Shown here one piece after another: positions 2,460-6,714 of a stretch of DNA of 7,821 nucleotides (position 1 is its first letter; each line of letters opens with the position of its first letter). The notes beneath the pieces were generated by a model. The model did no database searches. It worked only from the letters and a program-made list of their open reading frames with translations, and was not told the origin of the DNA. Made by a program: the position numbers and the translations under genes. Source of the stretch: an uncultured Lachnospiraceae bacterium (GTDB lineage: Bacteria > Bacillota > Clostridia > Lachnospirales > Lachnospiraceae); assembly GCA_949935685.1 (NCBI GenBank), contig CATLGN010000065.1, forward strand, positions 1 through 7,821. Direction: 5' to 3'.

Positions 2460-3923
2460 TTACCGCCTGCTGCGCGACTGGTACAGTTCCCGCAGGCACA
2501 TCAGTCCGGCGATATAAAAGAGGGATGTGTAGTAGATCATATAGCGGGAAAGGCACATAATCATCAGCGCCGTGGCAAAGGCATTGGCACAGATGATCAA
2601 AAGGGCAAAGAGCATCAACAGCGCCGCTTTGCTCCGTCTGTCCTTTTTCCACAAATACAACATCAATGCGATAGCAAGCACATACATAACCGCCGCATAA
2701 ATTCCCATCAGAAAGCCGCTCGCCGCTATGGAGCGGGTGAGGCCGCTGACCGCGGTTGCCAGGTAATTGGAAACAAAATCGCCTGCCAGACGGGGAAAGA
2801 GCTCCTGGTCCATCTGCGCCGCCATATCAGTCACTTGCCGAAGCTGTTCTCCCTCCGGAACGCCCTCACGTTCCATATAGCCAAACAGGCACGGCTGTTG
2901 TATTGTAAACCCAATCATATCATAATATTCCTCATAATGATATGCCCGATTCAAAATCCCCTGCGGTGCAAACGCCCGTGTCATGCCTTCCGCATCCATC
3001 TGTGTGTGCATCTCCAGAAACAGACCGCGCTGCACCGCATCCGACAGCGCCTCTGCGTCCGCCGTATCGGAAAGATACAGCAGCGTCGTCAGTATATTAT
3101 AGCTGCCGGTAGCCGTTCCCGTATAGCCCTGATGCGCAATGCCGTTATAAATCCGGTTGATCAGTCCCCGGCCGCCCACAAAGACCACAACAGCCAGTCC
3201 CAGAATGCAGAATCCTTTCCACCTGCGATACCGCAGCAGTTCGAATCCGATCACCGCGCACCAGACCGCAAAGGCAACCAGCATCTGATTCCGCGTCAGC
3301 GCCAGCAGCAAAGCCCACAGAAAGGCGGTTCCGTAATGTCTTCCCTTTTGTTCCCATTCCGCATACAGCCCCCGTATCATACGGCCCGCAAAAATGGCGG
3401 ACATCGGAAACGCCAGCCCTTCCGTCAGTACTGCCTTATTCAGCACCATATGGGAAGCCGAAGCCAGCGGCGTCAGCACATATGGAATCAGCGTACACAG
3501 CCCGGTCAGGACCGTCATTGCCGTTTGCAGGTGAAACGTCCGCCGCACCGACTGTGTCAGATCATAACAGGCAAACGCCGCAAATAAGCTCTGCACCAGC
3601 GTCGATACATGCAGCGCCGGCCACCGGTTAATCAATTCTATGGCCTTCTCACTGTCCAACTGACCCGAACTGGCCAGCCAGACAATCGTATCCTCTTCCC
3701 GAAAGATAAACCGAAAAAAAGCAAGAAAAATCGGGTATAATGGCTCTCTTCCATTCTGAAGCGAAATATAGGAACCGGAATCCGGATAAATCCCGATCGG
3801 TGCAAAATACCAGAGAATCCCGAAAAATGACAAAAAGGCGCCAAGCAGCCACCACTGCTTCGCCCCTTCCCGTCCGCTTATTTTCGATGGCTTACGCCAC
3901 AATCGTTTCATCGTTCCAGCCAT
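2460..3923 (-). CDS. Polytopic membrane protein, candidate GT-C-type glycosyltransferase or polysaccharide polymerase
   Basis: A 487-residue integral membrane protein. Hydrophobic segments fall near residues 24-43, 62-75, 103-120, 134-152, 163-180, 199-230 (two helices around LTRNQM), 236-250, 400-424, 432-455 and 461-477. A long polar stretch (about 255-395) separates the two hydrophobic halves and could face outside the cell. PDSGSY (47-52) just after the first helix, REPLYP (59-64), LTEGLAFP (166-173) and a late SRYMIYYT (459-466) resemble GT-C enzymes, where an acidic residue after TM1 is catalytic and polyprenyl-phosphate sugars are donors. I do not recognise a named family, so a Wzy-like polymerase or another membrane role is possible. 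The start is ambiguous: ATG 3923 has AGG seven bases upstream and overlaps the PIG-L gene by 16 bases, whereas ATG 3911 (Met5) would make an ATGA overlap with the PIG-L stop. Either way the genes are translationally linked. Confidence 0.75.
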   Translation of the reverse strand: MAGTMKRLWRKPSKISGREGAKQWWLLGAFLSFFGILWYFAPIGIYPDSGSYISLQNGREPLYPIFLAFFRFIFREEDTIVWLASSGQLDSEKAIELINRWPALHVSTLVQSLFAAFACYDLTQSVRRTFHLQTAMTVLTGLCTLIPYVLTPLASASHMVLNKAVLTEGLAFPMSAIFAGRMIRGLYAEWEQKGRHYGTAFLWALLLALTRNQMLVAFAVWCAVIGFELLRYRRWKGFCILGLAVVVFVGGRGLINRIYNGIAHQGYTGTATGSYNILTTLLYLSDTADAEALSDAVQRGLFLEMHTQMDAEGMTRAFAPQGILNRAYHYEEYYDMIGFTIQQPCLFGYMEREGVPEGEQLRQVTDMAAQMDQELFPRLAGDFVSNYLATAVSGLTRSIAASGFLMGIYAAVMYVLAIALMLYLWKKDRRSKAALLMLFALLIICANAFATALMIMCLSRYMIYYTSLFYIAGLMCLRELYQSRSRR

Positions 3924-4537
3924 TTGATAACCTGAAAGCCTTCCGCATAGGATACCCCATTCTGCCGACCGTTGTTTTCCGCATCATTTTTAAAATATGC
4001 AATTTTGTCCTCTTTTACTCTCCCGGAAACAGATTGATATTTGCGCATGGCAGCTTCTTTTTGTTCCCATACATCCGAAATGTCCACGAAAAAGTTGGGC
4101 GTAAACGGCGTCTCCGACTGATACCAGGTACACCGATAGCCCAGAATCCCCGGCACATGCCGGCCCGCATGGATCGCCGCCCTTGCCAGCGACCTGTGAT
4201 CATGCTGTATGTCCCCCGGAAAATGTGTGTACATCACGTCAAATTTTTCCTTTTCCATCATATGAATCAATTTGGCATTCAGACTGTCGTCAAATTCCAA
4301 ATGCAGTGTCTCAAATCCCCCGCAGATCAGCCGGCCGCCGATAATGCCCGCCGCTTCCTGCGCGTCCCGGAACACGGCATCATCTTTTCTGACCTCAATC
4401 CGTTCCGAATTTAAAACCCCGGAGGTGGCTGCCACAAAAAGCGTAATCTGATCCCCTTTTTGTTTATGCTTCAGAAGCGCTCCTCCGCAGCCGATTTCGA
4501 TGTTGTTAAAATGTGATCCAACCGCCAGTACCTTCAT
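3908..4537 (-). CDS. PIG-L/LmbE-family deacetylase-like protein with altered active-site motif
   Basis: This 209-residue protein has the length and order of PIG-L-family N-acetylglucosaminyl deacetylases: an N-terminal loop GSHFNNIEIGCGG (7-19), FVAATSG (34-40), a central ICGGFETLHLEF (71-82), and the second metal region THFPGDIQHDHRS (104-116). In characterised zinc enzymes such as MshB the first motif is AHPDD, with His and the second Asp binding zinc and the first Asp as general base. The later H-x-D-H supplies an acid/base His and the third zinc ligand. Here His9 and His114 remain, but the two Asp are Asn11 and Asn12 and the first later His is Gln111. The codons (AAC AAC; CAG) are unambiguous in the given sequence. 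It may be inactive as a hydrolase, bind metal differently, or have a binding role. The start has AAGGAGG (4546-4552) eight bases upstream. It is the first gene after the large non-coding gap and has its own promoter candidate. Confidence 0.87.
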   Translation of the reverse strand: MKVLAVGSHFNNIEIGCGGALLKHKQKGDQITLFVAATSGVLNSERIEVRKDDAVFRDAQEAAGIIGGRLICGGFETLHLEFDDSLNAKLIHMMEKEKFDVMYTHFPGDIQHDHRSLARAAIHAGRHVPGILGYRCTWYQSETPFTPNFFVDISDVWEQKEAAMRKYQSVSGRVKEDKIAYFKNDAENNGRQNGVSYAEGFQVIKWLER

Positions 4538-4552: not shown

Positions 4553-4579
4553 CTCCTATTTATTTAATTCTTATATAGT

Positions 4580-4608
4580 AGTATACCATTTTTATCCATA
4601 AATGGAAA
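4580..4608 (-). promoter_or_regulatory. Candidate sigma-A extended -10 promoter for the pigL-to-left operon
   Basis: Read on the minus strand: -35 TTTCCA (4608-4603, four of six matches to TTGACA), a 17-base spacer, then TATACT (4585-4580) preceded directly by TGG, forming an extended -10 (TGnTATACT). Transcription would begin near 4573, giving a leader of about 36 bases that carries the AAGGAGG site. The surrounding 4556-4610 is clearly more A+T-rich than its flanks. It would drive the PIG-L-like, membrane, epimerase, GT4 and propeller genes. It lies only 28 bases from the edge of palindromic element A. Confidence 0.68.
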
Positions 4609-4635
4609 CAGAAAAGTCGTGAGAGGATCATGGCG

Positions 4636-4865
4636 TTCCGACAGAGGCGGACATCCCGTCGATGCACCGGGCTGCGGGCATAAACGGTTCTAAGCGTTGC
4701 GGCAGCAGATACAGGCAGGCGTGCAATCGGCCTCTATGCGCCATCCGGGCGCAGATCGGCCTTTTCCGGACATCCGTGTCCGGAAATTGCGGGCTGTGGC
4801 GCACCGCCAAGAACCGCTAATACCCTCCGCACGGCGCACCGACGGGATGTCCGCCTCTGTCGGAA
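4636..4865 (-). repeat. Palindromic element A (~230 bp), structured repeat or MITE-like
   Basis: The two ends are perfect inverted repeats of 26 bases (4636-4661 against 4840-4865). The pairing continues inward: aligning 4662-4701 with 4800-4839 by eye gives 29 matches in 40 positions. The whole can fold as one 66-bp arm topped by smaller hairpins, including 4763-4786 and a TGCGCC/GGCGCA stem in 4735-4753. Its reverse complement is clearly homologous to element B at 5140-5372; one 48-base block (4718-4765 against 5241-5288) differs at only four positions. No open frame resembling a protein, no transposase and no clear target-site duplication are visible. It could be a miniature non-autonomous mobile element, a REP-like intergenic repeat, or a structured RNA. 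Orientation is called minus from the internal hairpins, relative to B as plus. Confidence 0.82.
4763..4786. repeat. Apical hairpin of element A
   Basis: Ten perfect base pairs (4763-4772 with 4777-4786) and a four-base loop. The stem contains TCCGGACA/TGTCCGGA. The equivalent hairpin in element B has the same length and loop size but two base pairs replaced by other base pairs. Confidence 0.85.
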
Positions 4866-5139
4866 GCATATTGCACTGCAGTGCTTTTCCGTTTTTGTCC
4901 ATCTCAGTTCATGAAACCTTCACAATCCGTTCATTCATGCGTTTGTCGTGGCCGGGATTGGAGTATTACTTTTCGGCTGGGACGGATATATCCGCATTGC
5001 AGACTTCCCTGATTTCTGCCCGCCATATGCTCTTGGTCAAAAAAACAGATCCCTTATGCTTGCAAAAGCAGAAAACACCTTACGAATTCCAAAACATTAC
5101 CGGCAAAGCCGAGATAAAAAATTTTCAAACCGTAACGCT
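4866..5139. other. 274-bp spacer between inverted palindromic elements, no gene seen
   Basis: This stretch is bounded by inverted copies of the same element. It is more A+T-rich than the elements and holds no gene I can support. Forward reading gives a short hydrophobic peptide (around 4945-4990) without a ribosome site, and I do not recognise it. A 12-base palindrome, GCACTGCAGTGC (4873-4884), is followed by TTTT, but its stem is too short for a convincing terminator. The layout resembles a composite insertion or a remnant of older sequence split by two insertions; neither can be decided from this window. Confidence 0.5.
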
Positions 5140-5372
5140 CCGGGAATCCGGTCAGACACCCCGTTTTCCGGGCCTACGGAGGGCGTTAGCGGTTCTTTGC
5201 GGTTTGTCAGTCCCTGCAATTTCCGTGCATGGATGCACGGAAAAGGCCGACCTGCGCCCGGACGGCGCATAGAGGCCGGTTGCGCGCCGGCCATAGCGAA
5301 TACTCAAACCGCTTAGAACCGCTTATGCACGCAGTCCGGCACCGCAAACGGGGCGCCTGTCCGGATTCCCGG
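5140..5372 (+). repeat. Palindromic element B (~233 bp), inverted relative to A
   Basis: The terminal arms 5140-5166 and 5346-5372 pair with 24 of 27 positions matching, including a perfect outer 12 (CCGGGAATCCGG). Inner arms pair again through AGCGGTTCT (5188-5196) with AGAACCGCT (5315-5323). Between them lie an apical hairpin (5220-5243), a TGCGCC/GGCGCA hairpin (5253-5269) and GGCCGG/CCGGCC (5274-5292). The core is homologous to the reverse complement of element A, but the terminal repeats have diverged strongly while staying self-complementary. It begins 22 bases after the dehydrogenase stop (5395), so it occupies the 3' end of that transcript. No T-run follows the structure on the minus strand, so it is not a standard intrinsic terminator. 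Confidence 0.82.
5220..5243. repeat. Apical hairpin of element B
   Basis: Ten base pairs (5220-5229 with 5234-5243) and a TGGA loop. Compared with the hairpin of element A read in the same orientation, stem positions 7 and 8 change from G-C and A-T to T-A and G-C, so both strands changed together. Confidence 0.85.
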
Positions 5373-5394
5373 CCGCATCACTTTGATACAATTT

Positions 5395-6714
5395 TTACAG
5401 CCTCCAGTACAAATACCCCGCCGCTTCATAATCTTTTCTGTCCAGCACACCCTTAATATCGATCAGCACTTTCCTGCGTCCGCCGTACAGCCTGTCTATC
5501 TGCGCCATCGTAAGCGCTTCGTATTCCGTATGGGAAACCGCCAGAACGACCGCATCCATATCCCGGATCGCAGATTCCTCCACAAAGGTAACGCCATATT
5601 CCCGCTCCGCTTCCGCGCGGTCGGCCACCGGATCGGTGATCAACGGCTGAATGCCATATTCCTGCAGTTCGTGCACAATATCGATCACCTTGGTATTTCT
5701 CGTATCCGGGCAATTTTCCTTAAAGGTAAAACCGAGGATAGCCACCTTTGCTCCCTTTACCGGAATATTGGCGCGGATGAGATTTTTGACAAGGCTTTCC
5801 GCCACATATTTTCCCATATCGTCGTTAATCCGCCGTCCCGAGAGAATAATCTGGGAATGATAGCCGAGCTGTTCCGCCTTATAGGTCAGATAATACGGGT
5901 CTACGCCGATGCAGTGACCGCCCACCAGCCCGGGGAAAAATTTCAGGAAGTTCCATTTCGTTCCCGCCGCCTCCAACACGGCTCTCGTATCGATTCCCAT
6001 CTTATTGAAAATAATCGAAAGTTCGTTCATAAACGCGATGTTAATATCCCTCTGGCTGTTCTCGATCACCTTTGCCGCCTCGGCAACTTTGATGGACTCC
6101 GCTCTGTGCACACCGGCGGTAACAACCAGCTCATACACCTTCGCCACCTCTTCCAGCGTCTCCGCATCCATCCCCGACACAATTTTGGTGATCGTCTCCA
6201 GTCTGTGCACCTTATCGCCGGGGTTGATACGCTCCGGGGAATACCCGATCTTAAAGTCCACGCCGCAGGTAAGCCCAGACTCCCGTTCCAGAATCGGCAC
6301 GCAGATGTCTTCTGTCACACCCGGATATACGGTGGATTCAAAGACAACGATCGAACCCCTTGTCAGATTACGCCCCAGAACACGGCTGGCTCCCTCCACC
6401 GGCGTCAGATCCGGCGTATGGTCGGGATTGACCGGCGTGGGCACCGCCACGATATGGAACTTTGCTTCCTTCAGTCTGCTCTCATCGCATGTAAAATCCA
6501 CGCTGCACGCCGCGATCGCCGCATCCCCGACTTCCCGCGTCGGATCGACGCCGCTCCGATACTGCGCGATCTTATGCTCATTCAGGTCAAATCCGATCAC
6601 ATCGATCTTTCGGGAAAACGCGACCGCAATCGGCATCCCCACATACCCCAGACCTACCAGCGACAGTTTTTCCTCTTTGTTTACCAGTTTTTCATATAAA
6701 CCCGTTTCCATCAT
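5395..6714 (-). CDS. tviB: UDP-N-acetyl-hexosamine 6-dehydrogenase (UDP-GlcNAc/GalNAc), TviB/WbpO type
   Basis: A 439-residue cytoplasmic enzyme of the UDP-glucose/GDP-mannose dehydrogenase family. It oxidises the C6 alcohol of a UDP-N-acetylhexosamine to the uronic acid with two NAD+. The NAD loop is GLGYVG (21-26). VPTPVN (91-96) and PDLTPVEGAS (101-110) precede the ESTVYPG motif (126-132). YSPERINPGD (158-167), VAEAAKVIENSQRD (210-223, Lys215) and the catalytic Cys268 in GGHCIGVDPYYL (265-276) follow. The C-terminal domain has LGFTFKENCPDTRN (327-340). Wording is close to TviB across the whole length, so an N-acetylated substrate is favoured over UDP-glucose; gluco versus galacto cannot be settled. 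ATG 6714 overlaps the upstream GT4 stop as ATGA and has GGAGG (6724-6728) nine bases upstream; a second ATG follows directly. The partner epimerase lies three genes downstream. Other name: wbpO. Confidence 0.94.
   Translation of the reverse strand: MMETGLYEKLVNKEEKLSLVGLGYVGMPIAVAFSRKIDVIGFDLNEHKIAQYRSGVDPTREVGDAAIAACSVDFTCDESRLKEAKFHIVAVPTPVNPDHTPDLTPVEGASRVLGRNLTRGSIVVFESTVYPGVTEDICVPILERESGLTCGVDFKIGYSPERINPGDKVHRLETITKIVSGMDAETLEEVAKVYELVVTAGVHRAESIKVAEAAKVIENSQRDINIAFMNELSIIFNKMGIDTRAVLEAAGTKWNFLKFFPGLVGGHCIGVDPYYLTYKAEQLGYHSQIILSGRRINDDMGKYVAESLVKNLIRANIPVKGAKVAILGFTFKENCPDTRNTKVIDIVHELQEYGIQPLITDPVADRAEAEREYGVTFVEESAIRDMDAVVLAVSHTEYEALTMAQIDRLYGGRRKVLIDIKGVLDRKDYEAAGYLYWRL

Follow-up and report, generated by a model that had tools for sequence, protein, structure and literature searches.

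Weinberg et al. (2010, PMC2864571) described the motif TwoAYGGAY (Rfam RF01731) as a probable RNA that is probably not cis-regulatory; in 2014 it was proposed, by motif matching, to bind CsrA (RMfam, PMC4333381). The accessible portions of the open-licence papers on TwoAYGGAY mention neither inverted ends nor target duplications; among the open-licence papers listed for MITEs of this bacterial group, none was relevant by title and start of abstract. Rfam gives the family the type label Cis-reg and places it in the clan of CsrB (CL00106). Dispersed palindromes, often arranged as inverted pairs, are also known from the REP/BIME elements with their RAYT transposases.

The window analysed here, a stretch of 7,821 nucleotides, contains two RF01731 copies in one intergenic region. 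What is new is that the RF01731 core is the interior of a longer element with terminal inverted repeats and target-site duplications.

Two inverted RF01731 copies in one intergenic region

The gap between a minus-strand ORF which we take to be UDP-glucose 6-dehydrogenase-like and one which is presumably PIG-L-type deacetylase-like is 857 bp long and contains two inverted palindromes. Both palindromes match RF01731 over the whole model (positions 1-168), with 94.2 and 91.0 bits against a gathering threshold of 43.

The initial annotation, made from the letters of the window, had described these palindromes as two inverted copies of an element of about 230 bp and had offered two identities for it, an undescribed structured RNA family or a palindromic mobile repeat. 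The inverted arrangement was confirmed: 4714-4851 pairs with 5155-5292 (78% over 138 nt), and each copy is itself a palindrome (4636-4704 with 4797-4865 and 5140-5174 with 5338-5372, both 83%). The apical hairpins were also as described, with ten pairs and a four-base loop each and with two stem pairs swapped between them (G-C to T-A and A-T to G-C). With such scores and 55 matches in the genome the repeat stands far above chance. The size of about 230 bp holds for the palindromes; the full elements are longer: the left element spans about 4604-4950, and a composite starting at about 4955 includes the right one. The two copies belong to one family, as proposed, but are two subtypes of it and not equal copies. 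The family is not undescribed, being already catalogued as RF01731; the Rfam comparison suggested at the time identified both copies. The features of the locus are as follows.

3908..4537, minus strand: flanking gene, presumably PIG-L-type deacetylase-like; relatives of 88% and 80% in the syntenic loci L052 and L053
4604..4950, minus strand: type A element, consisting of outer inverted repeat, inner box, outer stem, RF01731 core and second arm
4636..4704, no strand assigned: outer palindrome arm; partner 4797-4865, 83% complementary over 69 nt
4669..4832, minus strand: RF01731 TwoAYGGAY core of the type A element, 91.0 bits (cut-off 43)
4737..4753, minus strand: type A hairpin 2, TGCGCC-CGGAT-GGCGCA
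4763..4786, minus strand: type A hairpin 1, TTTCCGGACA-CGGA-TGTCCGGAAA, loop CA-CGGA-TG, ten pairs and four-base loop
4885..4900, minus strand: inner conserved box GGACAAAAACGGAAAA, 1 mismatch to the usual form GGACAGAAACGGAAAA
4929..4950, minus strand: outer terminal inverted repeat CACGACAAACGCATGAATGAAC, 0 mismatches
4955..5026, no strand assigned: composite element, remnant of its left hairpin (A'), matching the intact A' hairpin of locus L033 (G000:C160) in the same genome
5055..5139, no strand assigned: composite element, spacer; 81% to that of the L033 pair
5140..5372, plus strand: B palindrome of the composite element; window 5055-5394 is 86% to L033
5174..5337, plus strand: RF01731 TwoAYGGAY core of the B palindrome, 94.2 bits (cut-off 43)
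5220..5243, plus strand: B hairpin 1, TTTCCGTGCA-TGGA-TGCACGGAAA, loop CA-TGGA-TG, ten pairs and four-base loop
5253..5269, plus strand: B hairpin 2, TGCGCC-CGGAC-GGCGCA
5395..6714, minus strand: flanking gene, which we take to be UDP-glucose 6-dehydrogenase-like; its stop codon adjoins the insertion, and the gene order is kept in L052 and L053

In the window the type A element (about 4604-4950, its boundary at 4604 placed by eye) adjoins the composite element at 4955-5394. The far end of the type A element is missing: it is truncated next to a conserved, promoter-like stretch that belongs to the PIG-L gene, and the insertion lies upstream of this stretch. The composite is also incomplete, its A' hairpin being deleted at the base; the remnant matches one side of the A' hairpin of L033 with 4955-4989 (86%) and the other with 4986-5026 (79%).

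The promoter-like stretch itself, AAAAATGGTATACT (about 4576-4592, upstream of the PIG-L gene), is kept in L052 and L053, and the insertion ends just before it. A second divergent pair of cores occurs on contig C53 of the same genome (G000, loci L002/L005; 5939-6103 on the minus strand and 6264-6427 on the plus strand). It lies, like the pair in the window, directly upstream of a PIG-L-like gene (MNILAIGAHFDDIELGC...), which may be coincidence.

The RF01731 core is part of a longer element

Alignment of the copies together with their flanks placed the RF01731 core inside a longer element. In type A the order is the outer repeat CACGACAAACGCATGAATGAAC, the box GGACAGAAACGGAAAA, the outer stem and the core, followed by the mirror of all of these, about 400 bp in total. 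With up to 3 mismatches allowed, the genome has 75 occurrences of the outer inverted repeat, against 0 for the reversed-pattern control; the inner box occurs at 54+47 places at up to 2 mismatches, against 1+3 for its reversed control.

The composite subtype consists of two divergent cores and a conserved spacer, and close minus-plus pairs recur in G001, G017, G046, G411 and G430. The ends of the elements in G222, a genome of another genus, resemble GATTCGGGTGTCAAAAGG. Matches to this end pattern number 60 in G002, 61 in G222 and 36 in G412, compared with 0-2 for the reversed control.

Elements of 102 bp with the same arms and no core were found at three G222 loci, two of which have flanks with 8 or 9 matching positions out of 9; G412 has one element of equal length. 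Since these versions have the same ends, the core seems to be dispensable for movement. An element of 427 bp on contig C72 of the window's genome (2730-3156, L061) shares the ends and arms but carries another apical part where hairpin 1 would be, which suggests that the inner part is exchangeable.

Target-site duplications and an empty site

Both ends could be placed in 25 of 52 copies in the window's genome, three partial matches (contigs C134, C128 and C12) having been left out of the 55. Some of these elements are bordered by target-site duplications of 9-10 bp. The left and right flanks agreed at 9 or more of 10 positions in 7 of the 25 copies, compared with none of 600 mismatched left/right pairs, and at 8 or more in 11 of the 25, compared with 6 of 600; at the latter threshold no duplication was seen in the other 14 copies. 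Examples of flanks found on both sides of an element are GATTCTATTA, TTATTTTTCA and ATTTATCGCA.

Perfectly matching 9-base flanks were present in five copies of G222, of the CCTACTAG, CCTAATAG, CCTATAAG and CTTATAGG types. When 20 loci of G222, G412 and G002 were taken together, 5 had perfect flanks, against 17 of 380 mismatched pairs; this control is weaker because the insertion motif is shared, so that unmatched flanks often agree too. A search of 85 copies in other genomes for paired ends with duplications yielded 18 candidates, against 2 of 60 controls; it is a lead only, because several candidates are plain palindromes.

At the G222 loci L155-L169, about 11 of 15 insertions lie, by eye, at a CCTATAAG/CTTATAGG-like site, often by runs of T or A. 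This shared site is a possible fingerprint of the element's transposase.

Both syntenic loci that were found, L052 and L053, have an empty site: the gap measures 141 and 122 bp and carries no RF01731, compared with 857 bp in the window. At about 75% identity the comparison is not exact to the base.

No autonomous parent was recognised: among the matches listed, from a draft genome and few genomes in all, no paired ends 1-3 kb apart stood out, and none was seen around single inverted-repeat hits in the window's genome or in 20 G222 stretches. A Pfam scan of long ORFs beside the ends revealed no transposase domain; it covered 20 ORFs, of which 10 lie in ten G222 stretches and 10 in nine loci of the window's genome, with one or two ORFs for each locus.

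RF01731 is patchily distributed

The genome that carries the window (2.0 Mb in 361 contigs, 69% complete) has 55 RF01731 matches, 54 of them above the cut-off. Matches were obtained in at least 15 of 98 genomes (this one and its relatives), in at least 5 of 10 genomes at the level of the genus and in at least 65 of 397 genomes of a wider sample of the bacterial family; no match was present among the 25 candidates scored in one 99%-complete genome of the genus. These counts and absences are lower bounds, because up to 25 candidates per genome were scored in the set of 98 and up to 6 in the set of 397, with strict filters. So patchy a spread is more in keeping with a mobile repeat than with a regulator of the core genome's kind.

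The second identity offered at the outset, a palindromic mobile repeat, is supported by the terminal inverted repeats, the target-site duplications, the empty site in two relatives and this distribution.

Covariation resembles upkeep of a DNA palindrome

In an alignment of 47 cores from 45 genomes, 82% of the cells in paired columns could pair, versus 59% in shuffles. Two-sided changes affected 49 of 53 pairs and amounted to 583 cells versus 173 in shuffles, counted on a structure whose outer helix was shifted; the wobble counts below were made later with another structure. The initial annotation had read the paired substitutions in the two hairpins as a sign of conserved RNA structure and had looked to further genomic copies with covarying pairs for support. 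Such copies exist, 55 in the window's genome, with covarying pairs across the 47 cores. The covariation is real; as proof of a conserved RNA structure it is unsupported as stated, for the following reasons.

When a G-C pair undergoes a lone C-to-T or G-to-A change, the product is G-U or A-C. An RNA under selection retains G-U over A-C, and in a DNA palindrome neither is preferred. Across genomes, the 47 cores contained 24 G-U and 34 A-C cells, and two-sided to one-sided (G-U) changes stood at 422:15. Two RNAs from the same bacterial family, each represented by the best 30 of 38 positive genomes, gave very different values: 200 G-U versus 6 A-C cells and 91:101 for 6S RNA, 212 versus 1 and 120:81 for SRP RNA. 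Subsets of 30 cores gave the same picture as the full set (G-U versus A-C, 17 v 26, 14 v 22 and 30 v 25). The argument for RNA structure is weakened because the covariation across genomes is nearly all Watson-Crick and strand-symmetric, unlike that of 6S and SRP RNA; the scarcity of wobble pairs and the lack of strand bias suggest that it is at the DNA level that the arms regain their complementarity.

Within the window's genome the counts lean towards G-U. The 51 cores had 102 G-U and 29 A-C cells (23 v 19 columns), 58 of the 102 G-U cells sitting in three columns, and 23 whole elements had 151 and 74 (63 v 45 columns). In a rougher comparison of the arms, G-U stood against A-C at 74 v 17 in the core helix and 54 v 27 in the adjacent stem; the outer arms had 167 v 229. 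This excess is several-fold smaller than in 6S or SRP RNA. Because of it, the argument for a DNA palindrome is strong but not closed.

The covariation of RF01731 looks largely DNA-made. Concerted stem changes can arise when the template is switched during replication, a route described in the literature (PMC8794818).

Conserved loops and alternative readings

In the window copies both hairpins keep GGA in their loops. Their hairpin 1 has the AYGGAY forms ATGGAT and ACGGAT; hairpin 2 has CCGGAC and CCGGAT, with C for the first A. All 47 cores of the alignment have the closing C and G of hairpin 1, and 46 have the adjacent A. Loops were counted in 139 copies, 87 of which, from 44 other genomes, are a non-random choice from the best-scoring matches listed; two copies fell outside the loop pattern, though containing GGA. 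Among the 137 that fit the pattern, GGA was present in 122 hairpin-1 loops and missing from 15, in 7 genomes, 14 of the 15 having CGA. It is lost from both hairpins in four of six G017 copies and in the sole G142 copy, as if both loops were read by one reader. The altered loops read ACGA(U/G/C) in G017 (L089, L090, L152), G142 (L130) and G002 (L082-L084). Since conservation is far stricter in the loops than in the stems, something probably reads the loops.

CsrA is a candidate for this reader, and RF01731 could be an RNA whose two GGA loops titrate CsrA, the binding being predicted and mobility merely spreading the copies. The loop CA-NGGA-UG is a close match to the CsrA SELEX consensus RUACARGGAUGU (PMC7652899), and the frequency of GGA, the CsrB clan membership and the G-U excess within the window's genome point the same way, as does the presence of a CsrA gene in 62 of 65 RF01731 hosts against 148 of 332 non-hosts. 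Hosts and non-hosts differ as much in FliG (64 of 65 against 148 of 332), and within FliG-positive genomes the CsrA association vanishes (62 of 64 against 144 of 148; Fisher p 1.0). No separate CsrA signal is left, and the association is with flagellated lineages; the p values are optimistic because the genomes share ancestry. Strong RF01731 copies occur in G404, a 91% complete draft with no CsrA hit, GGA is absent from the 15 loops mentioned, sometimes in both hairpins, and the stems show no tolerance of wobble pairs across genomes. The SELEX hairpins, moreover, mostly have 4 pairs or fewer (PMC7652899), compared with about ten here. The CsrA reading keeps the loop match in its favour; as an account of what RF01731 is, we consider it unlikely.

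Two further readings were weighed against the same data. A REP/BIME-like palindrome mobilised by a RAYT-type single-strand transposase would account for dispersed palindromes, paired inverted copies and conserved loops; the elements here have target-site duplications, which RAYT chemistry is not known to produce, and their size and inverted ends are MITE-like, so that we hold this reading to be very improbable. Hardly any weight can be given to a cis-regulatory leader RNA, the reading implied by the Rfam type label Cis-reg. It is disfavoured by the absence of a fixed orientation: by a rough ORF rule, 20 of 42 copies lie on the same strand as the next gene and 22 on the opposite one. There are also many copies in a single genome, and the 2010 paper already marked TwoAYGGAY as probably not cis-regulatory (PMC2864571).

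Among the 397 genomes, RF01731 hosts are almost all flagellated, in a count that takes the genomes as they are, shared ancestry included. Divergent extra CsrA genes were considered as a part of the element and rejected: the one read throughout, a divergent second CsrA-like gene in G046 (C137:3601-3747, L055), lies by flagellin, and three of four such stretches have no RF01731. The neighbours of the G046 gene are presumably flagellin and a tyrosine-recombinase-like gene.

A mobile DNA element as the preferred reading

Established are the inverted repeats, the duplications, the 55 matches in a 69%-complete genome, the empty site in two relatives, the core-less versions and the pair statistics. 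The repeat is likely to be mobile DNA because of its inverted ends and duplicated flanking sites, and in this genome TwoAYGGAY is probably the interior of a palindromic, non-autonomous, MITE-like mobile DNA element whose arms are kept complementary at the DNA level. A transposase would act in trans on the ends of the element, with the RF01731 core as a passenger. Complementarity of the arms would be restored at the DNA level and not by selection on an RNA fold, most likely, we infer, when replication switches template across the palindrome. The loops may be read either by CsrA, in transcripts, or by a protein that binds DNA hairpins. Two points run counter to the MITE-like reading: the conservation of the loops needs a reader that a MITE does not supply, and the Rfam clan of RF01731 is that of CsrB.

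More tentatively, and with somewhat less than even confidence, we suggest that RF01731 as a whole is not an RNA family: the covariation would come from template switching in DNA, within a palindrome that is mobile, and the GGA loops would be read as DNA hairpins or, in transcripts, attract CsrA. If this were true, covariation-based RNA discovery would have a class of false positives that the count of G-U versus A-C exposes. This count is a cheap test that separates RNA-type covariation from the upkeep of a DNA palindrome, and it is applicable to every repetitive Rfam family. For a family that entered the literature in 2010 as a probable structured RNA of unknown function, the mobile-element reading provides a definite alternative identity whose life cycle can be tested. 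Should the loops indeed bind CsrA, a global regulator could be rewired in a new way, by a mobile element that disperses its sites.

Comparison with known systems

The window copies agree with Rfam RF01731 in the full-model match, the two hairpins and the GGA loops, apart from the C that replaces the first loop A of hairpin 2. The Rfam model comprises the inner core of about 165 nt, as an RNA, whereas here this core sits within a longer repeat that has inverted ends and target duplications.

With the CsrA-sequestering small RNAs (CsrB/RsmZ, clan CL00106) the elements share GGA hairpin loops and the clan of CsrB. They differ in occurring as dozens of dispersed copies with two loops each and stems of about ten pairs, in the loss of GGA in some genomes, in having few wobble pairs across genomes and in the many CsrA-bearing relatives without an RF01731 match. 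From REP/BIME elements they differ by target-site duplications and long terminal inverted repeats.

The elements also resemble prokaryotic MITEs (PMC10969869): both are short and have terminal inverted repeats, target duplications, many dispersed copies and strong hairpins. The element described here is one for which no parent insertion sequence was found, and it departs from MITEs in its palindromic arms along nearly the whole length, in ends that differ between species and in a conserved, sometimes absent, two-loop core.
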